A stretch of 64,000 nt of DNA from Lelliottia wanjuensis. Lineage in GTDB: Bacteria; Pseudomonadota; Gammaproteobacteria; Enterobacterales; Enterobacteriaceae. Within the stretch, counting starts at the first letter, position 1. The number at the start of each line of letters is the position of its first letter. The DNA is taken from positions 186,001 through 250,000 of the forward strand of contig NZ_JASSOT010000001.1 of the NCBI RefSeq assembly GCF_030238365.1, in the 5' to 3' direction. The notes beneath the pieces were generated by a model that made no database searches, had not been told where the DNA came from, and saw only the letters and a program-made list of their open reading frames with translations. Both the position numbers and the translations under genes were made by a program. Of the stretch, positions 4,050 to 23,554 are shown piece by piece.

Positions 4050-4741
4050 TTCGGGCCTCCGGCGCTGACGTCCACGTACTGAGGCGCGACGTCCTGGCTA
4101 AAGCGTCGTTGATATTGCTGCATCGGCGAGCTGTCGCACGCCGTGGCGTTGTCCTCGATAAACTTGACCTGTTCCTCTTCCCACACGGCGTCCAGCGCCT
4201 GACGGGTGTCATCCCGCTGTTCCGTCGCTACCTGTTTCGTGACGCTGTCACTTGTCAGTTTGCTGGCCGCAAGCGCCAGCAGAGCGTCAAACAGCTGATA
4301 CTGCGGCACATCGCGCTGCTTCAGCCGCCCGCCGATCAGCGCCAGAATCGGCGCGACATTCTGCAAACCCTCGCGCGCCTCGTCGTCAGGAATGATGCTC
4401 AGATACTCCAGATAGAGCGGCAGATAGTCCGGCAGCTCACGGCAGTCGAGGGCTAAACCGGCTTTCTCGTACTGGCCCATCAGATCGACCATCGCCTGGC
4501 CGCGATCGCGGGACTCGGCGTGAACATGCTCGAACAGCAGGAGCGACGTCGCGCGCCCGCGCTCGAACACCTCACACCACTGCGCCTGTTTATCGAGCAG
4601 CGCCGCGCCAAGATGCTGCTGCGCAAACGGCAGCAGCTGCGGCGCGTCCTGGGCGATCAGGGAGAGGGCTTCGTCGCGACTCTCCCAGAGCGCCTCGTCC
4701 GGATATTCAATGAGCAGGGCGATAATTTTCAGAATGCGCAT
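4046..4741 (-). CDS. narW: Nitrate reductase 2 assembly chaperone, delta subunit
   Basis: This 231-aa soluble protein is the NarJ/NarW chaperone that holds apo-NarZY and helps insert the molybdenum cofactor before membrane attachment. It is not part of the final enzyme. The N-terminus ([16 protein letters not shown]) and the acidic C-terminus are typical of the family. Its start codon shares one base with the narY stop and its stop overlaps the narV start, consistent with tight operon coupling. Confidence 0.93.
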
Positions 4742-6285
4742 TACTCTCCCTCCCCGTGTTCACGCACCTCGGAAATATTGATGGCGTCAATGCGCTGGCT
4801 GTTGAACAGATTGAATTTGGTGTCGGAGCCGTGGCAGCCGTCGCCGAAGGTAAAGCCGCAGCCGTTTTTCTCCGGGAAGGCATCGGCGGCCATTTCACGG
4901 TGGCTGGTTGGGATCACGAAACGGTCTTCGTAGTTGGCAATCGCCAGGTAGCGGTACATCTCTTCCACCTGTTCCACGCTCAGGCCCACTTCGTCGATGG
5001 CGCGGGTATCGGTCACGCCTTCCACGGTTTGCGAGCGTTTGTAGTGGCGCATCGCCATCATGCGTTTCAGGGCGCGCAGCACCGGGCCGGTATCGCCCGC
5101 ACTCAGCATATTCGCCAGATACTGCACCGGAATGCGCAGGCTTTCGACGGCAGGCAGAATGCTGTCGGTCTGCGGCAGACCACCGGCGTCGGCGTAGGAC
5201 TGGATCGGTGACAGCGGCGGCACATACCAGACCATCGGCAGGGTGCGATATTCCGGATGCAGCGGCAGGGCCAGCTTCCAGTCCATCGCCATTTTGTAGA
5301 CCGGCGAGCGCTGGGCCGCTTCGATCACGTTCTGCGGGATACCCTGTTTCAACGCTTCCTCAATCACCGCCGGATCGTTCGGGTTCAGGAATACGTCGCA
5401 CTGACGCTCGTACAGATCCGTTTCATGCTCGGTGCTGGCTGCTTCTTCAATGCGATCCGCGTCGTACAGCAGCACGCCAAGATAGCGAATGCGCCCGACG
5501 CAGGTTTCCGAGCAGACGGTCGGCTGACCGGACTCAATGCGTGGATAGCAGAAAATGCATTTTTCCGACTTGCCGCTCTTCCAGTTGAAGTAGATTTTTT
5601 TGTACGGACAGCCGCTGATGCACATGCGCCAGCCGCGGCATTTGTCCTGGTCGATCAGGACAATGCCGTCCTCTTCGCGCTTATAAATCGCGCCGCTCGG
5701 GCAGGTGGCGACGCAACTCGGGTTCAGGCAGTGCTCGCACAGGCGCGGGAGGTACATCATGAAGGTGTTTTCGAACTGGCCGTACATCTCCTTTTGCATC
5801 TTGTCGAAGTTACGGTCGCGGGCGCGTTTCTCGAATTCGCCGCCGAGCAGCTCCTCCCAGTTCGGGCCGCCGACGATTTTGTCCATTCGTTTACCGCTAA
5901 TCAACGAGCGCGGACGCGCGGTCGGGAGATGATCGCCCTCCGGCGCGCGGTGCAAGTCCTGATAGTCAAAGGTGAAAGGCTCGTAATAGTCGTCGATGCC
6001 TGGCAGCGACGGGTTGGCGAAGATTTTCGACAGCACGCCCACGCGTCCGCCGAGGCGCGGCGTCAGTTTCCCGGTGATCCCGCGCACCCAGCCGCCTTGC
6101 CACTCCTCCTGGTCTTCCCAGTTTTTCGGATAGCCGATGCCCGGTTTGGTTTCGACATTGTTAAACCACGCGTATTCCATCCCTTCGCGCCCGGTCCAGA
6201 CGTTTTTGCACGTCACCGAGCAGGTGTGACACCCAATGCATTTGTCGAGATTCAGTACCATGCCGACCTGTGAGCGTATTTTCAT
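4741..6285 (-). CDS. narY: Nitrate reductase 2, beta (iron-sulfur) subunit
   Basis: This 514-aa protein carries the electron-transfer wire between haem b in NarV and the catalytic subunit NarZ. Four cysteine clusters are visible: CIGCHTCSVTC near residue 16, CEHCLNPSCVATC, CRGWRMCISGC (Trp replaces one Cys, the hallmark of the [3Fe-4S] centre) and the CIFC/CSETC group. Length equals E. coli NarY. The start overlaps the narZ stop by four bases. It acts on the cytoplasmic side of the inner membrane. Confidence 0.96.
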   Translation of the reverse strand: MKIRSQVGMVLNLDKCIGCHTCSVTCKNVWTGREGMEYAWFNNVETKPGIGYPKNWEDQEEWQGGWVRGITGKLTPRLGGRVGVLSKIFANPSLPGIDDYYEPFTFDYQDLHRAPEGDHLPTARPRSLISGKRMDKIVGGPNWEELLGGEFEKRARDRNFDKMQKEMYGQFENTFMMYLPRLCEHCLNPSCVATCPSGAIYKREEDGIVLIDQDKCRGWRMCISGCPYKKIYFNWKSGKSEKCIFCYPRIESGQPTVCSETCVGRIRYLGVLLYDADRIEEAASTEHETDLYERQCDVFLNPNDPAVIEEALKQGIPQNVIEAAQRSPVYKMAMDWKLALPLHPEYRTLPMVWYVPPLSPIQSYADAGGLPQTDSILPAVESLRIPVQYLANMLSAGDTGPVLRALKRMMAMRHYKRSQTVEGVTDTRAIDEVGLSVEQVEEMYRYLAIANYEDRFVIPTSHREMAADAFPEKNGCGFTFGDGCHGSDTKFNLFNSQRIDAINISEVREHGEGE

Positions 6286-9200
6286 TTTTTCGCCTCCTGT
6301 ACCTGATCCCGACCTTCGCCATCCAGCCAGTTAATGTTTTTCATCTTGCGGATCATGATGAATTCGTCGCGGTTCGAGCCGACGGTGCCGTAGTAGTTAA
6401 AGCCGTAGGCCAGCTGCGCGTAGCCGCCAATCATATGCGTCGGTTTCGGGCAGACGCGAGTGACGGAGTTGTGGATCCCGCCGCGCCGTCCGGTCACTTC
6501 CGAGCCCGGTATGTTAAGAATGCGCTCCTGGGCGTGATACATCATGGTCATGCCCGGCGGCACGCGCTGGCTGACGACCGCGCGGGCGGTGAGGGCGCCG
6601 TTGGCGTTGAAGGCTTCGATCCAGTCGTTGTCTTCAATGCCTAACTCGCGGGCATCCGTTTCGCTGATCCAGACGATCGGCCCGCCGCGCGACAGGGTCT
6701 GCATCAGCAGGTTTTCGCTGTAGGTGGAGTGAATGCCCCATTTCTGGTGCGGCGTCAGGAAGTTCAGCGCTTTTTCCGGGAAACCGTTCGGCGGAATTTC
6801 GCGCATGTGGGTCACGCTGCGGGTGTCGATCGGCGGACGATAGGCCACCAGGCTTTCGCCAAAGGCGCGCATCCACTGGTGATCCTGATACAGTTGCTGA
6901 CGCCCGGAGAGGGTACGCCACGGGATCAGCTCGTGGACGTTGGTGTATCCGGCGTTATAGGAAACATGCTCGCTCTCGATGCCGGACCAGGTCGGGCTGG
7001 AGATGATTTTGCGCGGCTGGGCCTGGATATCGCGAAAACGAATCTTCTCGTCTTCTTTGTTGATCGCCAGATGGGTATGGTCGCGTCCGGTAAATTCGGC
7101 GAGGGCTTTCCAGGCTTTGACCGCCACGTGGCCGTTGGTTTCCGGGGCAAGCGACAGGATCACCTCCGAAGCGTCGATGGCCGTATCGATCAGCGGACGC
7201 CCTTTGCACGGGCCATCGAGCTTGACGTAGTTCAGCTTGCCGAGGAAATCGACTTCGTCCTGGGTGTTCCAGGAAATACCTTTCCCGCCGTTGCCGAGCT
7301 TGTCCATCAGCGGCCCGAGCGAAGTAAAGCGCTCGTACGTTTCCGGATAATTACGCTCGATAACAGCGATGTTCGGCGCGGTTTTACCGGGGATCAGATC
7401 GCATTCACCTTTGCGCCAGTCCTGAATATCAAAGGGCTGCGACAGCTCCGCCGGGGAATCGTGCTGCAACGGCTGCAATACCACGTCAGTTTCTGTACCC
7501 AGATGGCCGACGCACACTTCGGAAAACACTTTGGCGATGCCTTTGTAGATATCCCAGTCGCTGCGCGATTCCCACGCCGGATCCACGGCTGCCGAGAGCG
7601 GGTGAATAAACGGATGCATATCCGAGGTATTCATGTCGTCTTTCTCGTACCAGGTCGCGGTCGGCAGGACGATGTCCGAGAACAGACAGGTGCTGGACAT
7701 GCGGAAATCGAGGGTCACCAGCAGGTCAAGCTTGCCTTCGATGGCCGCAGTTTGCCACTCCACCTCTTCCGGTTTGACGTCGTCGGTCGAGCCGAGATCG
7801 TCGCCCTGAATCCCGCTCTCGGTGCCGAGCAGGTATTTAAGCATGTACTCGTGGCCTTTCCCGGAGGAGCCGAGCAGGTTTGAGCGCCAGACGAACAGAT
7901 TGCGCGGGTGGTTTTTGCCGTTGTCGGGCTGTTCGCAGGCAAAGCGCAGATCGCCCGATTTCAGCGCCTGCACCGTGTACTCCTGCGGGGACATTCCGGC
8001 GGCATCGGCGCGGGCTTTGATGTGCAGCGGGTTGAGCGACAGCTGCGGGGCGGACGGCAGCCAGCCCATCCTCTCGGCGCGCACGTTAAAGTCGATCAGG
8101 TGCCCGGTGAATTTCGACGGATCCGCCAGCGGGGAGAGCAGCTCCTGGGCGGTGAGTTTTTCGTAACGCCACTGGCTGGCGTGGTTGTAGAAGAACGAGG
8201 TGCTGTTCATCTGGCGCGGCGGGCGGTTCCAGTCGAGGGCAAACGCCAGCGGCAGCCAGCCGGTTTGTGGGCGCAGCTTCTCCTGACCGACGTAGTGCGA
8301 CCAGCCGCCGCCGCTTTTGCCGACACAGCCGCAGAAGACCAGCATATTGATCATCCCGCGGTAGTTCATGTCCATGTGATACCAGTGGTTCACCCCCGCA
8401 CCGAGGATGATCATCGAGCGACCGTGGGTTTTGTGAGCGGTATCGGCGTACTCGCGGGCGATCTGCTCGATATGACGACGCGGCACGCCGGTGATCTGCT
8501 CGCCCCAGGCCGGGGAGTAGGCTTTGATTTCGCTGTAATCTTTAACGGCGTTGGCATCTTCCAGACCGCGATCGAGGCCGTAGTTCGCCAGAATCAGATC
8601 GTAGACGCTGGCGACCTGCTGCTGACGGCCATCGGCCAGCGTCAGGGTTTTCGACGGCACTTTGCGGATCAGCACCCGGTCCTGTTTCACGCTGCGAAAA
8701 TGCGGGTTTTCGTTGCCGCCAAAGTAGGGGAAGGCCACGTTCGCAATATTGTCGTGAGTAATCAGCAGCGAGAGCGTCAGCTCAGTTTCCTGTCCTGCTG
8801 CCAGCGATTCGAGGTTCCATTTACCTTTTTCGCCCCAGCGGAAACCAATTGAGCCGTTCGGCGCGACCAGCCCTCCGGCGATATCAAAGGCCACGGTTTT
8901 CCATTCAGGATTGTTCTCCTCGCCCAGACCCTCGGCCAGATCCGAGGCGCGCAGCATCCGTCCCGGCACCAGACTCCCGTCGTCACGCGCATCGAGCATC
9001 ACCAGCATCGGCATATCGGTATAGCGGCGGCAGTAGTTGAGGAAGTAGTCGCTGGGGTTATCGAGGTGAAACTCGCGGAGGATCACGTGGCCCATCGCCA
9101 TGGCCAGGGCGCTGTCGGTGCCTTGTTTCGGGGCCAGCCACTGATCGCTCAGCTTGGCAACTTCCGAGAAGTCCGGGGTGATAGCGATGGTTTTGGTGCC

Positions 9201-10022
9201 TTTGTAGCGCACTTCGGTGAAGAAGTGTGCGTCCGGTGTGCGCGTCTGCGGCACGTTCGAGCCCCAGGCGATGATGTAGCTGGAGTTATACCAGTCGGCG
9301 GATTCGGGGACATCGGTCTGCTCGCCCCAGGTCATCGGCGAGGCGGGCGGCAGGTCGCAGTACCAGTCGTAGAAACTCAGACAAGTCCCGCCGAGCAGCG
9401 AGAGATAGCGCGTCCCGGCGGCGTAAGAGACCATCGACATCGCCGGGATCGGCGAGAACCCGGCGACGCGATCCGGGCCGTAATGCTTAATCGTCCAGAC
9501 GTTAGCGGCGGCAATCAGCTGGTTAAGCTCTTTCCAGTTCGAGCGAATAAATCCGCCGTGGCCGCGCGCTTTTTTGTAGCTGCTGGCCTTCTGCGGATCG
9601 CTCATGATGGCGTTCCACGCCAGCACCGGGTCGCTGTGCTGGCCCAGCGCTTCGCGCCACAGCTCGATCAGTTTTCGGCGCACCAGCGGGTATTTCAGGC
9701 GGTTGGCGCTGTAGAGATACCAGGAGTAACTCGCCCCGCGCGGGCAGCCGCGCGGTTCATGGTTGGGTAAGTCGGGGCGGGTGCGGGGGTAGTCGGTTTG
9801 CTGTGTTTCCCAGGTCACCAGGCCGTTTTTGACGTAAATCTTCCAGCTGCAGGAGCCGGTACAGTTCACCCCGTGGGTGGATCGCACTATTTTGTCGAAC
9901 TGCCAGCGCTGGCGATAACTGTCTTCCCAGTCGCGGTTGGTGTGCATCACCTGACCGTGCCCGTCGGCGAAGGTCTCGCCTTTTTGTTTGAAATACCGGA
10001 AGCGATCCAACAATTTACTCAT
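6282..10022 (-). CDS. narZ: Respiratory nitrate reductase 2, alpha (catalytic) subunit
   Basis: This 1246-aa molybdo-bis-MGD enzyme reduces nitrate to nitrite in the cytoplasm using quinol electrons delivered through NarV and NarY. The N-terminal FS0 iron-sulfur ligands are seen as HGVNCTGSC, with a later Cys in PRGCPRG. The Asp that ligands molybdenum in this family lies in SFYDWYCDLPP. Length equals E. coli NarZ (NarG is one residue longer). narU lies 69 bases upstream on the same strand, the arrangement of the RpoS-linked narZ locus rather than narGHJI, so narZ is preferred. Confidence 0.96.
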   Translation of the reverse strand: MSKLLDRFRYFKQKGETFADGHGQVMHTNRDWEDSYRQRWQFDKIVRSTHGVNCTGSCSWKIYVKNGLVTWETQQTDYPRTRPDLPNHEPRGCPRGASYSWYLYSANRLKYPLVRRKLIELWREALGQHSDPVLAWNAIMSDPQKASSYKKARGHGGFIRSNWKELNQLIAAANVWTIKHYGPDRVAGFSPIPAMSMVSYAAGTRYLSLLGGTCLSFYDWYCDLPPASPMTWGEQTDVPESADWYNSSYIIAWGSNVPQTRTPDAHFFTEVRYKGTKTIAITPDFSEVAKLSDQWLAPKQGTDSALAMAMGHVILREFHLDNPSDYFLNYCRRYTDMPMLVMLDARDDGSLVPGRMLRASDLAEGLGEENNPEWKTVAFDIAGGLVAPNGSIGFRWGEKGKWNLESLAAGQETELTLSLLITHDNIANVAFPYFGGNENPHFRSVKQDRVLIRKVPSKTLTLADGRQQQVASVYDLILANYGLDRGLEDANAVKDYSEIKAYSPAWGEQITGVPRRHIEQIAREYADTAHKTHGRSMIILGAGVNHWYHMDMNYRGMINMLVFCGCVGKSGGGWSHYVGQEKLRPQTGWLPLAFALDWNRPPRQMNSTSFFYNHASQWRYEKLTAQELLSPLADPSKFTGHLIDFNVRAERMGWLPSAPQLSLNPLHIKARADAAGMSPQEYTVQALKSGDLRFACEQPDNGKNHPRNLFVWRSNLLGSSGKGHEYMLKYLLGTESGIQGDDLGSTDDVKPEEVEWQTAAIEGKLDLLVTLDFRMSSTCLFSDIVLPTATWYEKDDMNTSDMHPFIHPLSAAVDPAWESRSDWDIYKGIAKVFSEVCVGHLGTETDVVLQPLQHDSPAELSQPFDIQDWRKGECDLIPGKTAPNIAVIERNYPETYERFTSLGPLMDKLGNGGKGISWNTQDEVDFLGKLNYVKLDGPCKGRPLIDTAIDASEVILSLAPETNGHVAVKAWKALAEFTGRDHTHLAINKEDEKIRFRDIQAQPRKIISSPTWSGIESEHVSYNAGYTNVHELIPWRTLSGRQQLYQDHQWMRAFGESLVAYRPPIDTRSVTHMREIPPNGFPEKALNFLTPHQKWGIHSTYSENLLMQTLSRGGPIVWISETDARELGIEDNDWIEAFNANGALTARAVVSQRVPPGMTMMYHAQERILNIPGSEVTGRRGGIHNSVTRVCPKPTHMIGGYAQLAYGFNYYGTVGSNRDEFIMIRKMKNINWLDGEGRDQVQEAKK

Positions 10023-13920: not shown

Positions 13921-14370
13921 TTAACCTAAATCATGGTTAACGATGGTTTTGCAAATGGCTGGGTCAGTGGCGAAATAATGAGACAGCATTGGGATGGGCT
14001 TGCATGAACTAAAGGAACTCATAAAGATAATATAAAAATAAACAAAGAGGGAAACTATATTAAATAGAACTAAGAATAATATCGATAGCATTGCGAGGAG
14101 ATTTCCAGAAAAAGCAAAAACCTTTGGCACTTGATTGCCTATAGTAAAGGGAACACATGCGATCATTATAATTCCGTATACTAGCATAGGTGCAAATGAT
14201 AACATTGCCAAATGTCGACCATCAAACCAAAAGAAATTACTATCGCTAAAAAATAGCATAAAATCATGGTATGGTATATTGATAGAGAAATAGAGAAGCA
14301 TACTTAGTATTGCTATGAGGACGAATGAAATCGTGGTGTATGCTGTTTTAGTTATTATTTTAATAAGCAT
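13921..14370 (-). CDS. Small polytopic membrane protein, candidate immunity protein
   Basis: I do not recognise this 149-aa protein by family. It has about four hydrophobic segments (SFVLIAILSMLLYFSI, FAPMLVYGIIMIACVPF, and two in LLAMLSILFLVLFNIVSLFVYFYIIF), so it should sit in the inner membrane. The start at 14370 is chosen because GGAGATAATC lies just before it; the ATG at 14382 has no such site. It begins 12 bases after the stop of the upstream membrane-active protein and is the last gene of the hcp cassette. By position and topology it is a good candidate immunity protein protecting against that cargo. It is AT-rich relative to the backbone. Confidence 0.6.
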   Translation of the reverse strand: MLIKIITKTAYTTISFVLIAILSMLLYFSINIPYHDFMLFFSDSNFFWFDGRHLAMLSFAPMLVYGIIMIACVPFTIGNQVPKVFAFSGNLLAMLSILFLVLFNIVSLFVYFYIIFMSSFSSCKPIPMLSHYFATDPAICKTIVNHDLG

Positions 14371-14382
14371 GATTATCTCCAT

Positions 14383-15270
14383 TTAATAACTTATAAAGAA
14401 GGAAGAGGGTAAGCCAGTATTCATGTATTGATTGTTCCATTCTAATATTTTTTGTTCTTTTACTAATAACTCATTTATTTTTTCTTTTAATGTCGTGGAC
14501 CATCCATTCTTTTCGTCCAGTCTGTTTAATGTCTTGTTTAAGTACACACTGGTAATGATGAGAAACCCGGCAGTGAGAATAACAGGGGCGCTAATTAGCG
14601 TAAACAAAAAACCAACAGCCCCAACAATTACGCAGGAAATAATTGTTTTTGCCGCATCTGCAATGACATCACCAAAAAAAACAATGAGCGTGTAATCATT
14701 TTTGAAAATCAATTCCATTGCCCTAAATGCGAGAGAAAAATAAACACAAAACTTTGCACCCTGATAAATGCTGTAAGTCATTCCGCGCCAGCCTATGCCC
14801 AATTCCAGTAACTGCATATTACCAGCGCGATAGCGGGTACCTTTTAAAATCCGTCTCAAGCTGGGATATCCGTTAATTTTGATATAAGAAATTCCACCAT
14901 AGCGGCAGGCCTTAGCCGTTATCCCCAGACCTTTTAAATTAAATTGAAGCTGGTTAGCCTCATCAAGGTACGTTGAAAAGCCAGCGAAATTATGCGCTCC
15001 ATCCCAGATGTCTTTTATGTTTCCTCCACCCAGCGTGTAGGAAAAGAAATCGTCCGTCTGCCCCATCAGATCGCTCAATACTCCCCGCGCTTCCGCCAGG
15101 GTTAGCAACATGAAATATTGAGTGTTTTTCTCCAGCAGTTGTTCGATTTGTGGGAGAGCATCAATATAGGGATGGTTTGGGATTAGCTGATTGATGGGCT
15201 GTTGCCCGCGCAACATATCGCCCATGTAGCCTGCCCAGGTATTGTCTCTTAAAGGATCAAAGTTTTTCAT
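14383..15270 (-). CDS. Putative Hcp-linked membrane-targeting T6SS cargo effector
   Basis: This 295-aa protein of unknown family has a soluble N-terminal part (about residues 1-150). Long hydrophobic stretches follow in about residues 160-250 (YSIYQGAKFCVYFSLAF, ISCVIVGAVGFLFTLIS, VILTAGFLIITSVYL), and the C-terminal tail is charged. There is no signal peptide, which argues against a resident exported protein. The start at 15270 follows AGGGAAAG; the longer frame to 15303 would overlap hcp. It lies 11 bases after an orphan Hcp gene and is followed by a small membrane protein, the usual cargo-then-immunity order. The inference is a pore-forming or membrane-depolarising T6SS effector. No enzymatic motif is visible. 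Confidence 0.55.
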   Translation of the reverse strand: MKNFDPLRDNTWAGYMGDMLRGQQPINQLIPNHPYIDALPQIEQLLEKNTQYFMLLTLAEARGVLSDLMGQTDDFFSYTLGGGNIKDIWDGAHNFAGFSTYLDEANQLQFNLKGLGITAKACRYGGISYIKINGYPSLRRILKGTRYRAGNMQLLELGIGWRGMTYSIYQGAKFCVYFSLAFRAMELIFKNDYTLIVFFGDVIADAAKTIISCVIVGAVGFLFTLISAPVILTAGFLIITSVYLNKTLNRLDEKNGWSTTLKEKINELLVKEQKILEWNNQYMNTGLPSSFFISY

Positions 15271-15281
15271 ATTTGCTTTCC

Positions 15282-15761
15282 CTAGAAAATGTTTTCTTCC
15301 CACAGACTATAGGTGCTGGTGCCTGCATTAACATGTTCCCAGCTAATGGATTTATAGCTGAATGAAACTCTGTCCTGTGCTTCCTTTCCATTCTGTGACA
15401 CTGAGCGGGGAATATGTAAATCCAGTTCAGCAATCCGCGCATCCGTGAGTTTTAAACGGTAATAACACTCCATGCATCCGGCTTTGTCAGTGCGATAAAA
15501 ATCGAACACGCAGCTGAGGGATTCGTTATCCGTTATGGCTTTTGCTAATAATGGAGAGGATTTATCAAGGGGTTTAACAATAGAGACGTTGTGGTGATTC
15601 ACGTTCCGTTCTCTTGAAAGGGTGTGGGAGAGAGAATAAACGAGTATTTGATCGCCGTGCGCAACTTGCGCTTTATTACCGACAGATGCCTGAGTCAGAC
15701 ATCCGGAAGAGATTAATCCCTGTATTTCACCTACCAGCGTAAGATAAACTAACCCTGCCAT
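15282..15761 (-). CDS. hcp: Hcp-family type VI secretion tube protein (orphan)
   Basis: This 159-aa protein matches the Hcp1 family. It has the N-terminal MAGLVYLTLVGEIQGLISSGCL block, a central LSRERNVNHHNVSIVKPLDKSSPLL segment and a C-terminal ISWEHV strand. Hcp forms hexameric rings stacked into the T6SS tube and can carry small effectors in its lumen. The start follows AAGGAATAATCAT. No other T6SS structural genes lie in the window, so it must work with an apparatus encoded elsewhere. It leads a three-gene AT-rich minus-strand unit. Confidence in the family is high; the cargo relation is inferred. Confidence 0.88.
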   Translation of the reverse strand: MAGLVYLTLVGEIQGLISSGCLTQASVGNKAQVAHGDQILVYSLSHTLSRERNVNHHNVSIVKPLDKSSPLLAKAITDNESLSCVFDFYRTDKAGCMECYYRLKLTDARIAELDLHIPRSVSQNGKEAQDRVSFSYKSISWEHVNAGTSTYSLWEENIF

Positions 15762-15993: not shown

Positions 15994-17220
15994 TTATTTT
16001 TCGAGTGCTGCGCTCAACACGCTATGCAGCAACACGTTCGCCCCTTTCTCTGACCACTCGGGCAGGATCTTTTCCGCTTCGTTGTGGCTGATGCCTTTTT
16101 CGCAGGGAATAAAGATCATGCTCGCCGGGGCGATTTTGCTGATATAGCAGGTGTCGTGCCCGGCACCGGAAACCATCGGTTTTGCCGAATAGCCGAGGGC
16201 TTCGACCGCTTTTTCACTGCGCGCCAGACAGGCTTCATCGAACGCGATCGGCGCGTAGTCGAAGATCCGCTCAACATTTGCCGTGACTCCTCGCGTCGCC
16301 AGCCCTTCAGCGGCTTCACGCAGCGCCACTTCCATTGCTTCCAGCACCTCGCTTTGCGGATGACGAAACTCCACGCTGCACACCACGCGTGAGGGCACGA
16401 CGTTGCGCGAGTTCGGCGTGACCTGCGCCATGCCGATGGTCGCGCGACCGTCCGGTTTGTGCTGATAGCCGATCTCTTCCACCATCAGCGCCAGCTCGGC
16501 GAAGGCAGTTAACGCGTCGCGGCGGCTGTGCATCGGCGTGGTGCCTGCGTGGGCGGCAAAGCCGTCCAGCGTCAGGGTAAACCAGCGCTGGCCCATCGCG
16601 GCGCGCACCAAACCGATATCAATCGCTTCGTCTTCCAGAATCGGTCCTTGCTCAATGTGCAGTTCGTAGCAGGCGTGAACCGGAAACGCGCGGGCAGGCT
16701 GGGTACCGCGATAACCGATCGCATCCAACGCTTCGCCGACGGTCACACCCGCGTTATCCGCGCGGGCGAGGGCGTATTCCTCGCTAAACTGCCCGGACCA
16801 GACGCCGGAGGCAAGCATCGCCGGGGCGAAGCGGGCGCCTTCTTCGTTGGTCCAGTTTACCAGCACGATGTCGCGCTCAGTTTCCACCTGGTGGTCGTTC
16901 AGGGTGCGCAGCACTTCCAGCCCGGCCAGCACGCCGTAGATCCCGTCGTAATTGCCGCCCAGCGGCTGGGAATCCATATGCGAGCCGGTCATCACCGGCG
17001 GCAGGTCGCGGTTTTTTCCGGCGCGGCGAATAAACATATTGCCCATGCTGTCGACGTCACAGGCAAATCCCGCCTCCAGCGCCCAGTCGCGCAGCAGATT
17101 GCGCGCGATGCGGTCTTCTTCGCTCAGGGCCAGACGCGTCACGCCGCCCGCGGGCGTGCCGCCGATTTGCGCCATCATCGCAAGCGTGGACCACAGACGC
17201 GGCGCATCGATGCGGATCAT
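15994..17220 (-). CDS. M20-family N-carbamoyl-L-amino acid hydrolase
   Basis: This 408-aa zinc amidohydrolase belongs to the hydantoinase/carbamoylase group, related to allantoate amidohydrolase and beta-ureidopropionase. Visible metal ligands are HMDSQPLGGNYDG, the EE pair in TNEEGARF, and His in the C-terminal GISHNEAE. The dimerisation insert carries AHAGTTPM. It should cleave an N-carbamoyl group to give an amino acid, ammonia and CO2. Its start overlaps the stop of the ATC hydrolase-like gene (ATGA), a strong hint that the two act in sequence: thiazoline ring opening to N-carbamoyl-L-cysteine, then to L-cysteine. The exact substrate is inferred. Confidence 0.85.
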   Translation of the reverse strand: MIRIDAPRLWSTLAMMAQIGGTPAGGVTRLALSEEDRIARNLLRDWALEAGFACDVDSMGNMFIRRAGKNRDLPPVMTGSHMDSQPLGGNYDGIYGVLAGLEVLRTLNDHQVETERDIVLVNWTNEEGARFAPAMLASGVWSGQFSEEYALARADNAGVTVGEALDAIGYRGTQPARAFPVHACYELHIEQGPILEDEAIDIGLVRAAMGQRWFTLTLDGFAAHAGTTPMHSRRDALTAFAELALMVEEIGYQHKPDGRATIGMAQVTPNSRNVVPSRVVCSVEFRHPQSEVLEAMEVALREAAEGLATRGVTANVERIFDYAPIAFDEACLARSEKAVEALGYSAKPMVSGAGHDTCYISKIAPASMIFIPCEKGISHNEAEKILPEWSEKGANVLLHSVLSAALEK

Positions 17221-17699
17221 GCTTTGTCCTTTTTGGTCTGATAGCGGAAATCACAGCATTTTCCGCCCTGCATAATGGTGGTGGTGCGCGTCAGTTCCAC
17301 GTCCGGCGCGTAGCCGACGATGAATTTCTCATCGCGGGCGCAGGAGAGCAGGTGGCCGATCTCGCCGAGCCCCATCTCGTGATACATCTCGGCGTAGCGG
17401 CAGCGCGTCACGTTGTAGTTGTACTGCTGGTCGTCGGCGTCGATCACTTTCACGTCCAGCGCGTTGTCTTTTTCCCAGAGATATTGCAGGGCGATAAAGC
17501 TTTTCACGTCCGCGCCGTTCGGCTCCTGGCGGGCAAAATGCGCCCCGGCGTCAATTGCAGCCTGTTCAATGGCTTCGCCAATCACCGCCTGGGCGCGGGT
17601 TTTCCCTATCTCGCGCACCAGGATCTCGTAAATGGGTTTAATAATTTCTGCTTCTATTTTGCGGCGGGCGAGAATGCCCAGCTCATTGTTATCGCTCAT
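17217..17699 (-). CDS. L-2-amino-thiazoline-4-carboxylate hydrolase family protein
   Basis: This 160-aa protein resembles the ATC hydrolase family, with conserved CRYAEMYHEMGLGEIGHLLSC and a C-terminal GKCCDFRY. The founding Pseudomonas enzyme opens L-2-amino-thiazoline-4-carboxylate to N-carbamoyl-L-cysteine. The ATG at 17699 is preferred over the GTG at 17702 because GAGG lies seven bases before it. The neighbours (carbamoylase downstream, Liv-type importer upstream) fit a pathway that imports and hydrolyses a cyclic or carbamoylated amino acid. The activity is not proven; related proteins of unknown substrate are common. Confidence 0.75.
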   Translation of the reverse strand: MSDNNELGILARRKIEAEIIKPIYEILVREIGKTRAQAVIGEAIEQAAIDAGAHFARQEPNGADVKSFIALQYLWEKDNALDVKVIDADDQQYNYNVTRCRYAEMYHEMGLGEIGHLLSCARDEKFIVGYAPDVELTRTTTIMQGGKCCDFRYQTKKDKA

Positions 17700-17716
17700 C
17701 ACATTGCCTCACTGCG

Positions 17717-18874
17717 TTACTTCGTTTTTGCGCCGCCCAGAACGGTTTGCGGCTGCCATTTCCCGTCGACCACTTTGTAAACGGTAAAGGACGGGGATTT
17801 CAGGTTGCCCTGATCGTCGAAAGCGATCTGGCCGGTGACGCCGGAATAGCTGATGGCGCGCAGGGCGGGCAGGTACTCAGACGGATCGACGGAGTCGGCT
17901 TTTTCCATTGCCGCCACCAGCACGCGGGTGGCGTCATAGGCGAACGGGGCGTGCAGTTCGATATGGGTGTGGTAGCGGGACTGATAAGCCTGCTCGAAGG
18001 CTTTGCCGCCCGGCATCTGGTCGACCGGCAGTCCTGGCTCCAGCGCCACTACGCCTTCGCCTTCTTTTTGTGCCAGCTGCAGGAAGGTCTGGCTAACGAA
18101 GCCGCCCGCGCCCATCAGCGTGGCGTTCATATTCAGCTGCTTGATGCGACGCGCCAGCGGAGCAGCCTGGCTATCCACGCCGCCGAAGAACACCAGATCG
18201 GCGTTTTTGCTGCGAATGGCGGTTAACACGGCGCTAAAATCGACGGTTTTGTCGTCAACGTACTGACGGTCAACAATCTTCACGCCCTGAGCTTCCAGCG
18301 ATTTGATGAATTCATCTGCCAGGCCCTGGCCGAAGGCGGTGCGGTCGTCGATCACCGCGATGCGTTTGGCTTTCAGGGTTTTCACCGCATATTCGCCCGC
18401 GAACTGGCCGCCGTCATCGTCGTGGCCCATTACGCGAAAACTGGTGTCAAAGCCCTGTTTGGTATAGGCGTGACCGGTGGCGACTGGCGCGACCTGGGCG
18501 ATCCCGGCGTCATGATAGACACGCGCCGCCGGAATGCTGGTCCCGGTATTCCAGTGGCCGACCACGCCTGCCACGCCGCTGTCGACCAGACGCTGCGCGA
18601 CGGCCACGGCGGTGCGCGGGTCAGACTGGTCATCTTCGGACTGCAGTTTGAAGGTCACCGCTTTGCCGCCGATGGTCGGGTGCTGTTTGTTGATGTCATC
18701 GATCGCCAGCTGTGCGCCGTTCTCCAGATCTTTCCCGATACGCGCGGAAGGGCCGGTGAGCGGGCCTGCCAGGCCGATGATGACGGTTTCGCTCTGGGCC
18801 GCCCATGAGGCGGAGGAGGCAAAACCACTGAGCAAAAGCGCGGCGCTGAGCGCACTGATTTTTAAGGTTTTCAT
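17717..18874 (-). CDS. Periplasmic Leu/Ile/Val-family binding protein
   Basis: This 385-aa protein has a Sec signal peptide (MKTLKISALSAALLLSGFASSASWA) and then a LivJ-type periplasmic fold beginning VIIGLAGPLTGPSARIGKDLENGAQLA. The start at 18874 is chosen because AGGGAAATTATA precedes it and the signal peptide begins there; upstream codons are out of character. It would capture the ligand for the LivFGHM-like transporter encoded just upstream. Given the hydrolase pair downstream, the ligand may be a thiazoline or carbamoyl amino acid rather than leucine. Confidence 0.88.
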   Translation of the reverse strand: MKTLKISALSAALLLSGFASSASWAAQSETVIIGLAGPLTGPSARIGKDLENGAQLAIDDINKQHPTIGGKAVTFKLQSEDDQSDPRTAVAVAQRLVDSGVAGVVGHWNTGTSIPAARVYHDAGIAQVAPVATGHAYTKQGFDTSFRVMGHDDDGGQFAGEYAVKTLKAKRIAVIDDRTAFGQGLADEFIKSLEAQGVKIVDRQYVDDKTVDFSAVLTAIRSKNADLVFFGGVDSQAAPLARRIKQLNMNATLMGAGGFVSQTFLQLAQKEGEGVVALEPGLPVDQMPGGKAFEQAYQSRYHTHIELHAPFAYDATRVLVAAMEKADSVDPSEYLPALRAISYSGVTGQIAFDDQGNLKSPSFTVYKVVDGKWQPQTVLGGAKTK

Positions 18875-18902
18875 TATAATTTCCCTGGTGTTGGTTGGTG
18901 TG

Positions 18903-19622
18903 TTAAACGGGCATTTCGCCCAAATAAATCTGTGCAATCTGGTCGTCATCGAGCAGCGCTTTGGATTCGCCGTGATGCACGATGCTGCCGCTGTCCATCA
19001 CCCAGGCCTGGTCCGTCACTTCCAGCGCCAGCCGGGCGTTTTGTTCAATTAGCAGCAGGGCCACGCCGCGTTCGCGCAGCCCTTTGATAACCTGAAAAAT
19101 GTTCTCGACCATTTTCGGTGCCAGACCCATCGACGGCTCATCGAGGATCAACAGGCGCGGGCGGCTGAGCAGGGCGCGGTTCAGCGCCAGCAGCTGCTGT
19201 TCACCGCCGGAAAGCAGCCCGGCGAGCTGATGCTGACGTTCGCCGAGGCGAGGGAAACGGTCGAAAATCTCGTCCATTTCTCTTTTTACTGTGACAGTGT
19301 CACGGCGCAGCCAGGCACCCATTTGTAAATTCTCCAGCACCGTCATGCGGGCGAAGATGCCGCGACCTTCCGGGACCATCACCAGCCCGTCGCGCAGCAA
19401 GGCTTCGGCTTTGCGTTTACGCACCGGCTGGCCGTTAAACAGAATGTTGCCGCCGAAGTTTTCCAACCCGGTGATAGCGCGCACGGTTGAGCTTTTGCCC
19501 GCGCCGTTAGCACCGATCAGCGTTGCCTGTTCGCCTTCCTGCAGGGTGAACGATACGCCGCGCACCGCCTGAATCCCGCCGTAATGCACGTCCAGGCGTT
19601 CGACTTTGAGTAATTCAGACAT
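18903..19622 (-). CDS. LivF-type ABC transporter ATPase
   Basis: This 239-aa ATPase has a Walker A GANGAGKSS, signature LSGGEQQLL and Walker B LLILDEPSMGLAP, with the short LivF-type C-terminus. The start at 19622 follows GGAGG and overlaps the livG-like stop by eight bases. It energises the branched-chain-type importer of this cluster from the cytoplasmic face. Confidence 0.9.
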   Translation of the reverse strand: MSELLKVERLDVHYGGIQAVRGVSFTLQEGEQATLIGANGAGKSSTVRAITGLENFGGNILFNGQPVRKRKAEALLRDGLVMVPEGRGIFARMTVLENLQMGAWLRRDTVTVKREMDEIFDRFPRLGERQHQLAGLLSGGEQQLLALNRALLSRPRLLILDEPSMGLAPKMVENIFQVIKGLRERGVALLLIEQNARLALEVTDQAWVMDSGSIVHHGESKALLDDDQIAQIYLGEMPV

Positions 19623-20382
19623 GGGCGTTGCCTCCAAGCCAGGCGGCGATCACCGCCGGGTCACGTCGTACCGTGTCGGGCGTGCCGACGGCCAGGGTTT
19701 TGCCGTAATCCAGCACCGTGAGGCGATCGCAGATCCCCATCACCAGCTTGACGTCGTGCTCTATCATCAACAGGGTTTTGCCGTCGTCACGAATACGGGT
19801 GAGCAGTTCGCCGAGAGCGTTTTTCTCAGCGGCGTTCATGCCCGCAGCCGGTTCGTCGAGCGCCAGCAGCAGCGGGTCGGTCGCCAGCGCGCGGGCGATC
19901 TCCAGTCGACGCTGATGGCCGTATGCCAGGTCACAGGCGCGATAGTGGGCGAATCGGGCGATCCCGGTATACTCCAGCCAGTGCCAGGCCAGCTCGCGGG
20001 TTTGCGCCTCTTCAGCGCGAGCGCGTTGATGGCGCGTTAGTGCCGCCCAGAGCCCGTTGCGGGTGCGCACATGGCGACCGACCATCACGTTCTCCAGCAC
20101 CGACATTTCGTTAAACAGGCGCACGTTCTGAAAAGTGCGTGCGATACCGGCGGCGGTGACTTTGTCGATCTGCTTCGGGAAATAGGGTTTATCGGCAATC
20201 GAAAACTCGCCGCTGTCCGCCGGATAGAGGCCGGTGATCAGGTTGAAACAGGTGGTTTTGCCTGCGCCGTTGGGGCCGATCAGGCCGTAGATTTCGCCCT
20301 TGTTGATCGAGAGAGAAACATCGTCGACGGCGGTCAGACCACCAAAGCGTTTAGACATATTGCGCACGGTTAACAGGCTCAT
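19615..20382 (-). CDS. LivG-type ABC transporter ATPase
   Basis: This 255-aa ATPase has Walker A GPNGAGKTT, a LivG-type signature region (LAYGHQRRLEIARAL) and Walker B LLLALDEPAAGMN. The C-terminal GxP-rich tail is typical of LivG. Its ATG overlaps the permease stop by four bases. It pairs with the LivF-like protein to power import. Confidence 0.9.
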   Translation of the reverse strand: MSLLTVRNMSKRFGGLTAVDDVSLSINKGEIYGLIGPNGAGKTTCFNLITGLYPADSGEFSIADKPYFPKQIDKVTAAGIARTFQNVRLFNEMSVLENVMVGRHVRTRNGLWAALTRHQRARAEEAQTRELAWHWLEYTGIARFAHYRACDLAYGHQRRLEIARALATDPLLLALDEPAAGMNAAEKNALGELLTRIRDDGKTLLMIEHDVKLVMGICDRLTVLDYGKTLAVGTPDTVRRDPAVIAAWLGGNAHV

Positions 20383-21485
20383 GCCTTGACCTCCTTGTGA
20401 CGGACCGGCCAGATCCCGGACGGACGCAGGAGCATCACCAGCACCAGCGCCAGGCCGTAGAACAGCTGGCGCAGAATTTCCGGGTCGATCAGCACGGTGC
20501 CAAACAGCGCCTGCTGAACGGGGGCCGCCTGGCTGCGCAGGATTTCCGGCAGGGCGGTCAGGAGCACCGCGCCGAGGATCACGCCAGGGATATGGCCCAT
20601 CCCGCCGAGTACCACCATCGCCAGCACGGCAATGGACTCTTGCAGGGTGAAGGATTCTGGCGACACGAAGCCCTGGAAAGCACCGAACAACGCACCTGCG
20701 ACGCCGCCAAAGGAGGCGCCCATCGCAAAGGCCAGCAGCTTGTAGTTGCGCACGTTGATGCCCATCGCGCGGGCCACGTCCTCATCTTCACGAATCGCGT
20801 GCCACGCCCGGCCAATGCGCGAGTGTTGCAGGCGCAGGCAGACAAAAATAATCAGCACAATCACCAGCATCAGCAGGTAGTACCACAGCCACAGAGCCGG
20901 GACTTTCATGCCAAACCAGTGATAGACGCCGCTAAATTTCAGGCCAAACAGATTGAGGGTATCGACGCCGGTAATGCCTTTCGCGCCGTTGGTGATGTTC
21001 ACCGGGCGGTCGAGATTGCGCATCAGAATGCGGATGATCTCCCCGAAGCCGAGGGTGACAATCGCCAGATAGTCGCCGCGCAGTTTTAGCGTCGGCGCGC
21101 CGAGGATAATGCCGCACACCGCCGCGACCAGCGCCGCCAGCGGGATGATCAGCAGGTATGAAGTGTGCAGCCCGTCCGGGAACCAGACGCTGAGGATCGG
21201 GAAGACCTCCAGCAGATGCGGGGAGGCCAGCAGTGCCGCCAGATAGGCCCCAACCGCGTAAAAGGCGATAAAGCCCATATCCAGCAGGCCGGTGTAGCCG
21301 ACGACAATGTTCAGCCCGAGCGCCAGCATGATGTACAGCAGCGCAAAGTCGATCACGCGCACCCAGTAGTTGCCGCCGATCTGGCTAGCGAATATCGGCG
21401 CAACCAGCAGGGCGATGACGAACAGCGTCATGCCGGACCAGAAGCGGCGCGAAGAGGCAGGAGCCTGGAGTGATGTGGTTGTCAT
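20379..21485 (-). CDS. LivM-type ABC transporter permease
   Basis: This 368-aa inner membrane permease has about ten hydrophobic segments and the family motifs GYTGLLDMGFIAFYAVGAY and GRAWHAIREDEDVARAMGIN, the latter the loop that contacts the ATPases. It lies eight bases after the second permease gene and is coupled to livG-like translation. Confidence 0.9.
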   Translation of the reverse strand: MTTTSLQAPASSRRFWSGMTLFVIALLVAPIFASQIGGNYWVRVIDFALLYIMLALGLNIVVGYTGLLDMGFIAFYAVGAYLAALLASPHLLEVFPILSVWFPDGLHTSYLLIIPLAALVAAVCGIILGAPTLKLRGDYLAIVTLGFGEIIRILMRNLDRPVNITNGAKGITGVDTLNLFGLKFSGVYHWFGMKVPALWLWYYLLMLVIVLIIFVCLRLQHSRIGRAWHAIREDEDVARAMGINVRNYKLLAFAMGASFGGVAGALFGAFQGFVSPESFTLQESIAVLAMVVLGGMGHIPGVILGAVLLTALPEILRSQAAPVQQALFGTVLIDPEILRQLFYGLALVLVMLLRPSGIWPVRHKEVKA

Positions 21486-21493
21486 AATTTTCC

Positions 21494-22444
21494 CTACGCC
21501 CTGTGCGCCACGCGTTCGCCCAGCAGACCTGCCGGACGGAATACCAGTACCAGAATCAGCACAATGAAGGCGAAGACGTCCTGATAGTTACTCCCGAACA
21601 CGCCATTTGTCAGTTCACCCAGATAGCCTGCGCCCAGCGCTTCGATGATCCCGAGTAAAATCCCGCCGATCATCGCGCCGCGAATATTGCCGATTCCGCC
21701 CAGCACGGCGGCAGTGAAGGCTTTGATGCCGGGCAGAAAGCCTATCGAGAAACTGGCGTTGCCGTAGTTGCTGGCCATCATTACGCCTGCGAGGGCGGCG
21801 AAGATGCCGCCGATGGCGAAGGTGAGCGTGATAATGGCGTTGGGGTTGACGCCCATCAGCGTGGCGACGCGCGGGTTTTCCGCCACCGCGCGCATCCCGC
21901 GCCCAAGACGGGTGTATTCCACGAGCAGCCACAGGCCGATCATCACGATCAGTGCCAGTGACACAGTGACGATGCCTGTGACCGTCACAATGGCCGGAGG
22001 ATGGTCAACGCTGCCCGAGGTGACGGCAATGGCGTCCATCGGCAGGATCTGCGGGAACATCAGCGGGTTGCGCGTCCAGATAATCATCGCCACGGTTTGC
22101 AGCAAGACGGAGACGCCAATCCCGGAGATCAGCGGCGCCAGACGCGGGGCGTTGCGCAGGCGGCGGTAGGCGAAGCGCTCCACCGCCATCGCCAGCAGGG
22201 CGCAGACGGCCATGGCAATGACCAGCGCAAAGCCGAGCTGCAACAGCTGCGGCATATGTGGGAACGTGCTGTTCAGCGCGTTCAGGGCCGACAGCGTGGT
22301 GAGCGCGCCGACCATCAAAATGTCGCCATGGGCGAAGTTAATAATGCGCAAAATGCCATACACCATCGTATAGCCCAGCGCGATCAGCGCGTAGATGCTG
22401 CCCAGCATCACGCCATTGATCAGTTGTTGTATCAGTGTATCCAA
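21494..22444 (-). CDS. LivH-type ABC transporter permease
   Basis: This permease has the LivH N-terminal block INGVMLGSIYALIALGYTMVYGIL and the coupling loop YTRLGRGMRAVAENPRVATLMGVN. A TTG start at 22444 (316 aa) is chosen because the family begins about 12 residues before INGVML and GGGT lies eight bases upstream. The alternative ATG at 22483 would add 13 residues unlike the family and has no visible ribosome site. It is the first gene of the seven-gene operon, divergent from a LysR regulator. Confidence 0.82.
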   Translation of the reverse strand: MDTLIQQLINGVMLGSIYALIALGYTMVYGILRIINFAHGDILMVGALTTLSALNALNSTFPHMPQLLQLGFALVIAMAVCALLAMAVERFAYRRLRNAPRLAPLISGIGVSVLLQTVAMIIWTRNPLMFPQILPMDAIAVTSGSVDHPPAIVTVTGIVTVSLALIVMIGLWLLVEYTRLGRGMRAVAENPRVATLMGVNPNAIITLTFAIGGIFAALAGVMMASNYGNASFSIGFLPGIKAFTAAVLGGIGNIRGAMIGGILLGIIEALGAGYLGELTNGVFGSNYQDVFAFIVLILVLVFRPAGLLGERVAHRA

Positions 22445-22540
22445 TGTGTTTACCCGACAGATTGCTCTTTCAGCGGGTAACATCCGACAATTGAATTAAA
22501 TTGTAAAATACGCATATATTATTTCTTATGATATTTCGAG

Positions 22541-22615: not shown

Positions 22616-23554
22616 ATGAATAAAACAGAACAATCACTCCTGCTGCCTGCGTATGCCGAAAGCCGTCTTGCAAACGATCCGCCCCTGCGGGCCGTACGCG
22701 CTTTCGAGGCGATCGCCCGGCTGGGGAGCGTCACCCTGGCGGCGCAGGAGCTGGCGATATCGCCCTCTGCCGTGAGTCATCAGCTGAAGGTGCTGGAAGG
22801 GTATCTGCAAATGCCGCTCACGGAGCGTCAGGGGCGCAGGCTGATCCTGAGCCAGCAGGGGCGCGACTATTACCGCTCGATCCGCGCGGCGTTTAACGTC
22901 CTGCGCCAGGCGACGGAGCACCTGGTGGAGCAGGCCCAGACGCGTCAGGTGACCATCAGCCTGATCCCGCTGTTTGGCATGGGCTGGTTTATTCCGCGTC
23001 TGCCCGCCTTTATGCGCGCCAACCCGCAGACGGAAATTAACGTTGTGTATGCCAACCATCGCAACTATCTCAGCGACGCCTCGGATATGTCGATTCGCTT
23101 TGGTAACGGCCAGTGGGCGGGGTATCAGAGCGAAAAACTGATTTCCGGGCAGATGGTGCCGGTGTGCAGCCGGGCGTTTTTGCGCATTCACGGGCATATC
23201 GATACCCCGGAACAGCTGCTGCAAATGCCGCTTCTGCACGATGAAGAGCGCAGTACCTGGCAACAGTGGTTTATCCAGCAGGGCGTGAAACGGACAGCGC
23301 GCAAGAGTGGTCCGCTGTTTGAGGATGGATTACTAACTCTGGCGGGCGTTCAGGCGGGGCTCGGCTGTGCGCTGATGCGCGAGCCGCTGATCGCACCCTA
23401 TCTGGAGAGCGGCGAGCTGGTGAAAATCTTTGACGCCCCCATCGATGACGGGCGCGATTATTATCTGTGCGTCCGTCAGGATTCGGACATGACCGAGGAT
23501 GGCAAACTACTGCAAGCCTGGCTCCGGCGTGCGGCGGGCAGCGCTACGGTGTAA
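22616..23554 (+). CDS. LysR-type regulator, GcvA-like
   Basis: This 312-aa protein has a LysR winged helix-turn-helix (about residues 25-85, LGSVTLAAQELAISPSAVSHQLKVLE) and a periplasmic-binding-like effector domain. The HTH block and length resemble the GcvA subgroup. It is divergent from the Liv-type/ATC operon and is the likely local regulator, perhaps sensing the transported compound. Its 3' end overlaps the convergent GFA gene by 11 bases. Confidence 0.85.
   Translation: MNKTEQSLLLPAYAESRLANDPPLRAVRAFEAIARLGSVTLAAQELAISPSAVSHQLKVLEGYLQMPLTERQGRRLILSQQGRDYYRSIRAAFNVLRQATEHLVEQAQTRQVTISLIPLFGMGWFIPRLPAFMRANPQTEINVVYANHRNYLSDASDMSIRFGNGQWAGYQSEKLISGQMVPVCSRAFLRIHGHIDTPEQLLQMPLLHDEERSTWQQWFIQQGVKRTARKSGPLFEDGLLTLAGVQAGLGCALMREPLIAPYLESGELVKIFDAPIDDGRDYYLCVRQDSDMTEDGKLLQAWLRRAAGSATV

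Follow-up and report, generated by a model that had tools for sequence, protein, structure and literature searches.

A Lelliottia wanjuensis operon joining a Liv-type importer to PF14196 and M20 hydrolases, with a predicted role in cysteine salvage

We analysed a stretch of 64,000 nucleotides from Lelliottia wanjuensis (contig NZ_JASSOT010000001.1, positions 186,001 to 250,000 of the forward strand), hereafter the window, whose minus strand carries a tightly packed operon of seven genes (22483-15994): livH, livM, livG, livF, a binding protein gene, a gene for a protein of family PF14196 (hydrolases of L-2-amino-thiazoline-4-carboxylate, ATC) and an M20 amidohydrolase gene. In the reading that we prefer, and to which we give a probability of about two in three, the operon imports an N-blocked cysteine derivative and hydrolyses it to cysteine. 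We infer the substrate, the direction of transport and the regulation as follows. A Liv-type ATP-binding cassette importer under a LysR-type regulator would take up the derivative, most likely ATC and possibly N-carbamoyl-L-cysteine; in the cytoplasm, the PF14196 protein would hydrate the thiazoline ring to yield N-carbamoyl-L-cysteine; and the M20 enzyme would strip the carbamoyl group, releasing L-cysteine, CO2 and ammonia.

The L-ATC pathway of AtcB and AtcC (TsB and TsC) is familiar from Pseudomonas strains BS, ON-4a and TS1138, chiefly for making cysteine industrially, and the assignment of its steps to atcB and atcC is said to go back to work by Shiba in 2002. There, as in the window, a small PF14196-type hydrolase is followed by an M20 carbamoylase-type enzyme, and we liken the window enzymes (18.2 and 44.2 kDa) to AtcB and AtcC (19.5 and 44.7 kDa in strain BS) by family and size, our comparison with Pseudomonas sequences having covered uncharacterised orthologues. 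What sets the window system apart is its linkage to an importer and a LysR gene, described here from genomes. Among the titles and first lines of abstracts listed by searches of the partly available literature, there was no report of an importer or regulator for the ATC pathway, nor of the aminoacylase variant described below, which is weak evidence of absence. In Pseudomonas, according to the available portion of PMC10821248, ATC reaches cysteine through N- or S-carbamoylcysteine, both intermediates being on record. ATC itself is presented, in the accessible text of PMC9291117, as a spontaneous product of cyanide and cystine, so the operon could recover cysteine from a cyanide adduct. The joining of importer, regulator and enzymes, together with the desulfhydrase-like neighbours and the oxidase/acylase variant discussed below, would point to a real metabolic role for such enzymes, namely, cysteine recovery from cyanide, and possibly aldehyde, adducts.

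The enzyme pair, the importer and the regulator

Both enzyme genes proved to be what the first-pass annotation had taken them for, down to the ATGA by which they overlap (17220-17217). The AtcB-like protein (161 residues; 17217-17702, minus strand) matches PF14196 (146.5 bits, cut-off 28.1; E = 1.3e-42), and the AtcC-like M20 protein (408 residues; 15994-17220, minus strand; PF01546) matches the hydantoinase/carbamoylase family TIGR01879 with 399.1 bits against a cut-off of 204, as well as PDB entry 5thw (E = 6.3e-149). Two narrower equivalog models were failed by the M20 protein: AllC (TIGR03176; 233 bits, cut-off 597.75) and the N-carbamyl-L-glutamate amidohydrolase ErtE (NF058540; 331 bits, cut-off 520). 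It carries GSHMDSQ, TNEEGARF, ELHIEQG, HAGTTPM, NSRNVVP, SGAGHD and GISHNE, which we take to be motifs of the carbamoylase family; they are common, with variation, to ten other carbamoylase partners that were aligned, whereas three aligned aminoacylase partners differ at these sites and carry MHACGHD. The rest of the Lelliottia genome returned a single weak match to the M20 protein (83 residues, E = 7.5e-6).

For the hydrolase, an AlphaFold2 model built from 28 window-clade sequences (mean pLDDT 85.8, pTM 0.78) found its top Foldseek matches in the phenol-sensor domains of MopR, PoxR and DmpR (E = 1.5e-5). VIA-align placed the model on MopR (5kbh) with a Z of 9.7 and a root-mean-square deviation of 4.0 over 146 aligned residues, and on Bet3 (1wc9) with a Z of 10.4 and a deviation of 4.2 over 145, values of a size that can stem from a common arrangement. 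In a comparison of 25 sequences with identities as low as 16%, the sole invariant residues are C101, E105, C121, T142 and C150. Three cysteines and one glutamate, in the order Cys-Glu-Cys-Cys, presumably also that of MopR, recur in the V4R sensors, to which, as to Bet3, the predicted fold appears similar. In the available part of PMC10715001, MopR-type V4R domains are described as holding a structural zinc by three cysteines and one glutamate; a 2018 survey (PMC5847659), in the part available, places the methanogen domain MetOD1 together with three families (heme-NO-binding, V4R and ATC hydrolase), noting three conserved cysteines of MetOD1 that recur in the latter two. The invariant C101, E105, C121 and C150 on a seemingly V4R-like predicted fold parallel the MopR zinc site and hence suggest a zinc site in the hydrolase, from which we infer the metal: the PF14196 protein is probably a zinc-dependent ring-opening hydrolase of V4R-like fold. 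Unlike the V4R sensor domains, it is a stand-alone predicted enzyme, with 10-17% identity to V4R domains in the Foldseek matches listed. The predicted Cys-Glu-Cys-Cys metal centre would offer a testable active site for a family without a sequence-detectable solved relative, as a search of solved structures returned no match with the 161-residue protein and one irrelevant match (E = 1) with the hydrolase alignment. Separately, the operons of two Azospirillum loci hold a second, divergent PF14196 paralogue (L165:2726-3253 and L166:2667-3176, in our locus labels), which keeps the invariant cysteine and glutamate residues and is 16% identical to the window hydrolase.

That a complete Liv-type transporter shares the operon, as had been claimed, is borne out by Pfam domains. 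On the minus strand lie genes for a LivH-type permease (21494-22483; PF02653, 5.3e-48), a LivM-type permease (20379-21485; PF02653, 1.5e-50), a LivG-type ATPase (19615-20382; PF00005, 3e-30; PF12399, 1.2e-09), a LivF-type ATPase (18903-19637; PF00005, 5.6e-29) and a Liv-type periplasmic binding protein (17717-18949; PF13458, 5.2e-60). This is the five-component architecture of the Liv (HAAT) branched-chain amino acid importers, with the same Pfam domains (one Peripla_BP_6 binding protein, two BPD_transp_2 permeases and two ATPases). A check of open reading frames and strands found all junctions short or overlapping. The program-made start of the binding protein falls within livF, and its likely start is the ATG at 18874, before MKTLKISALSAALLLSG; the start at 22444 given by the first-pass annotation is a TTG within the livH frame, where translation may begin.

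The binding protein has as its closest solved chain 3ip5 (E = 1.4e-55), which we take to be Atu2422, followed by related entries and then by LIVBP, and it fails the NCBIfam Liv model NF011933 (225.9 bits, cut-off 477). We compared its pocket across 78 orthologues of at least 55% identity, the window protein included, in the numbering of LIVBP (2liv). Glycine replaces Glu226, presumably the acidic amine-binding residue of LIVBP, in 78/78; positions 79 and 102 are threonine throughout; positions 18, 77, 150 and 276 are invariant as I, W, F and H; and position 202 holds V (73), I (3) or L (2). The window protein accordingly differs from LIVBP in having Gly for Glu226, Phe for Tyr150 and Val for Tyr202. 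If the residue roles that we assume for LIVBP hold, the pocket suits a conserved ligand that has a carboxylate but lacks an ordinary alpha-ammonium group. Position 226 is Ser in three alphaproteobacterial Liv-type binding proteins (of the aminoacylase architecture or relatives) and Gly in one from Aminobacter, so binding proteins outside the window clade can lack the acid as well.

Divergent from the operon stands the LysR-type gene that had likewise been noted (22616..23554, plus strand; PF00126, 3.8e-18; PF03466, 5.3e-26); its product is GcvA-like, scoring 253.8 bits against the NCBIfam GcvA model, under the cut-off of 288. Alignment blocks from 16 Enterobacterales intergenic regions, hand-picked from 73 extracted, delimit a conserved element, ATAAGAA...GTATTT.ACAA (22501..22529, minus strand), as a candidate LysR operator/promoter.

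Conservation of the locus

A one-genome-per-species scan of 84,980 species with the 161-residue window hydrolase as query yielded 92 loci, the best 80 of which were kept; as these were chosen by similarity to the query, the counts that follow describe conservation within the clade rather than frequency in nature. Their labels include Enterobacter, Lelliottia, Leclercia, Atlantibacter, Klebsiella, Raoultella, Serratia, Pantoea, Mixta, Pseudomonas, Paraburkholderia and Neisseriaceae, among others. The hydrolase gene lies beside a carbamoylase-type M20 gene in 80/80 (the M20 frame being cut at 236 residues in one, L080), the LysR gene is present in 77/80, absent from the three Neisseriaceae contigs, and the binding protein gene is found in 72/80. 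Complete sets of livHMGF, binding protein and enzyme pair occur in 70/80, including 18 of the 22 Pseudomonas-labelled loci, whose hydrolases are 66-73% identical to that of the window. The two enzyme genes overlap by ATGA in 63 and by GTGA in 8 of the 79 loci in which a script read both; L143 was left out of this count because its hydrolase start is ambiguous. The gene arrangement is not due to chance.

With the Lelliottia genome itself included in each sample, PF14196 occurred in 38/147 genomes of the sample of relatives, all under the window's own genus label, in 9/369 of the class sample, where the other eight matches are weaker (best E = 5.5e-30), and in 30/398 of the phylum sample. A wider count covered 148 loci, which are not independent, since some genomes and plasmid lineages enter more than once. 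In that set, the Sinorhizobium meliloti ABS7 locus (S. meliloti, L072), with a 209-residue M20 fragment alone beside the hydrolase, was scored as having no M20, and the M20 of RCAM1750 (L173) has 418 residues.

Neighbouring genes and competing explanations

Some comparative support for a route from thiazoline to cysteine may be drawn from the neighbourhood of the pair, together with the pocket that has no amine-binding acid, although loci with cysteine- or sulfur-type neighbours are few. In three related Shinella loci (L171, L238 and L241), a gene resembling the L-cysteine desulfhydrase Cds1 lies 3' of the enzyme pair (569.3 bits, cut-off 600, in L171, the one scored). The order in Shinella zoogloeoides (L238) is an Amdase/racemase-superfamily gene, the ATC hydrolase gene, M20, RidA, the Cds1-like gene and an SsuA-like binding protein gene; the first scores best with EutA/arylmalonate decarboxylase models, under cut-off, and is thus at most a possible ATC racemase. 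Transporters of sulfur-compound type stand in for Liv in a few loci: a MetNIQ-like one lies 3' of the pair on the Neisseriaceae contigs L148 and L149, and an SsuA-like one occurs in Pantoea coffeiphila (L117). An SsuA-like gene akin to the L117 one also occurs in L120, a locus with the complete Liv set, at least 6 kb from the pair and on the other strand.

A number of results weigh against the cysteine reading. The M20 protein passes NF006769, titled allantoate amidohydrolase (583.2 bits, cut-off 452), a title that we treat as a family label for a broader subfamily. The hydrolase has no NCBIfam match at E up to 0.001, its Foldseek match to MopR has TM values of 0.55 (query length) and 0.46 (target length), and the scores of Bet3 proteins are on a par with that of MopR. 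Cds1-like linkage is confined to 3/94 carbamoylase loci, all in Shinella, the nearest Cds1-like gene of the Lelliottia genome (61%) is on another contig, and the MetN, MetQ and SsuA matches fall under NCBIfam cut-offs. With our queries, neither M20 type turned up near the PF14196 gene in 48/148 loci of the wider count (44/47 in distant genomes and 4/21 in plasmids), so PF14196 is broader than the ATC pathway, and the Pfam name does not fix function. Finally, a Pseudomonas bin (L150) holds genes for a urate oxidase-type enzyme and a xanthine/uracil-type permease (4854-7653, plus strand) about 2-5 kb before the pair, upstream of LysR. The hydrolase of Azospirillum B510 (L071), which had no M20 that we could find beside it, is followed at a distance of about 4-11 kb by urea amidolyase genes (urea carboxylase and allophanate hydrolase). 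Both loci point to nitrogen ureides.

These two loci favour an alternative that we regard as unlikely, in which the operon scavenges ureides or hydantoins for nitrogen rather than sulfur, the M20 enzyme acting on another N-carbamoyl amino acid or a ureide and the PF14196 protein opening a five-membered ring of related kind, that of a hydantoin or thiohydantoin. The breadth of the M20 family, evident from its TIGR01879 match and many subfamily matches, would suit such a role, as would the hydantoinase/oxoprolinase-family genes flanking the Pantoea dispersa operon (L068), the downstream set of which is also carried by its relative L134. Yet the scanned Pantoea gene of this kind is nearest a caprolactamase model, under cut-off, the annotations of the regions fetched list no dihydropyrimidinase-type hydantoinase (plasmid gene tables being incomplete, and no homology search having been made), and the Shinella pairs stand beside cysteine-cleaving genes. 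The earlier proposal of import and hydrolysis to cysteine holds in part: the gene identities and the two-step chemistry fit it, whereas the L150 locus points to ureide metabolism. Both Pantoea loci, L068 and L134, also have a Sapep dipeptidase gene beside the operon.

We see a somewhat better, though still doubtful, case for the same enzymes serving to dispose of cyanide-cystine or other reactive cysteine adducts, with cysteine and ammonia as a bonus. The spontaneous origin of ATC described above speaks for it, and so do bd-type oxidase genes near the pair, with a DUF2474 gene, in two Aminobacter plasmids, a set that we take to mark a cyanide-insensitive oxidase; against it, the oxidase queries matched no other searched locus (L237-L242 lay outside the search), bar weak matches of about 30% in L218 and L223. 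Scavenging of sulfur, scavenging of nitrogen and disposal of adducts cannot be told apart by sequence. That the importer is for an ordinary amino acid, its linkage to the hydrolases being incidental, seems quite improbable. Its membership in the Liv family and the 10/80 loci with no livH near the pair (some on short contigs) are compatible with this idea, but it is countered by the 70/80 loci that hold importer and pair together, by the pocket positions invariant in 78/78 and by the loss of the acidic amine-binding position.

An aminoacylase variant and the surroundings of the operon

Six plasmid loci from alphaproteobacteria (L165, L166, L167, L168, L170 and L237; two Azospirillum, Pseudosulfitobacter, Sagittula, Agrobacterium and Ochrobactrum) combine a related hydrolase with an aminoacylase-type M20 and a flavin adenine dinucleotide (FAD) oxidase. 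Of these six M20s, the three scanned against NCBIfam match TIGR01891; the two FAD enzymes scanned are nearest L-pipecolate oxidase, under cut-off, and four match Pfam DAO. Two of the loci carry Cds1-like genes, and two others encode SufS-like class V enzymes, under cut-off. An FAD gene is found in 6/6 aminoacylase-type loci vs 0/94 carbamoylase loci, a contrast that lineage confounds and that does not count as independent evidence, since the Sagittula and Ochrobactrum loci resemble those of Pseudosulfitobacter and Agrobacterium and since the association was noticed first and then counted, with queries from four of the same six loci.

According to the available text of a paper on mammals (PMC9814826), bacteria turn thiazolidine-4-carboxylate into N-formylcysteine; set beside the gene content of the variant, this leads us to hypothesize that a thiazolidine is oxidised to a thiazoline, whose ring is opened and whose product is then deacylated. 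On these grounds it is possible, though we would sooner bet against it, that the window-clade PF14196 proteins are general 2-thiazoline-4-carboxylate hydrolases in a modular salvage of cysteine adducts, a carbamoylase M20 fitting them to ATC and an aminoacylase M20 plus FAD enzyme to thiazolidines. The thiazolidines would then be cysteine-aldehyde adducts, oxidised by the FAD enzyme and opened to an N-acyl-cysteine from which cysteine is released, and the cysteine might be degraded by the Cds1-like or desulfurase-like enzymes linked in 4/6 loci. More generally, the variant suggests a wider family of thiazoline-opening enzymes.

A megablast of the window operon against Escherichia coli genomes, run in near-identity mode only, gave no match. 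The M20 stop codon is followed on its 3' side by a sequence that we assume to be REP-like (repetitive extragenic palindromic). Directly downstream, a stand-alone Hcp gene (T6SS_HCP, 3.5e-21) precedes two open reading frames of 306 and 153 residues without Pfam matches (13921-15761, minus strand), possibly an orphan Hcp-effector-immunity cassette. Farther out, the window contains genes for the beta and alpha subunits of a respiratory nitrate reductase (4741-10022, minus strand) and for a fimbrial usher (36295-38832, plus strand).

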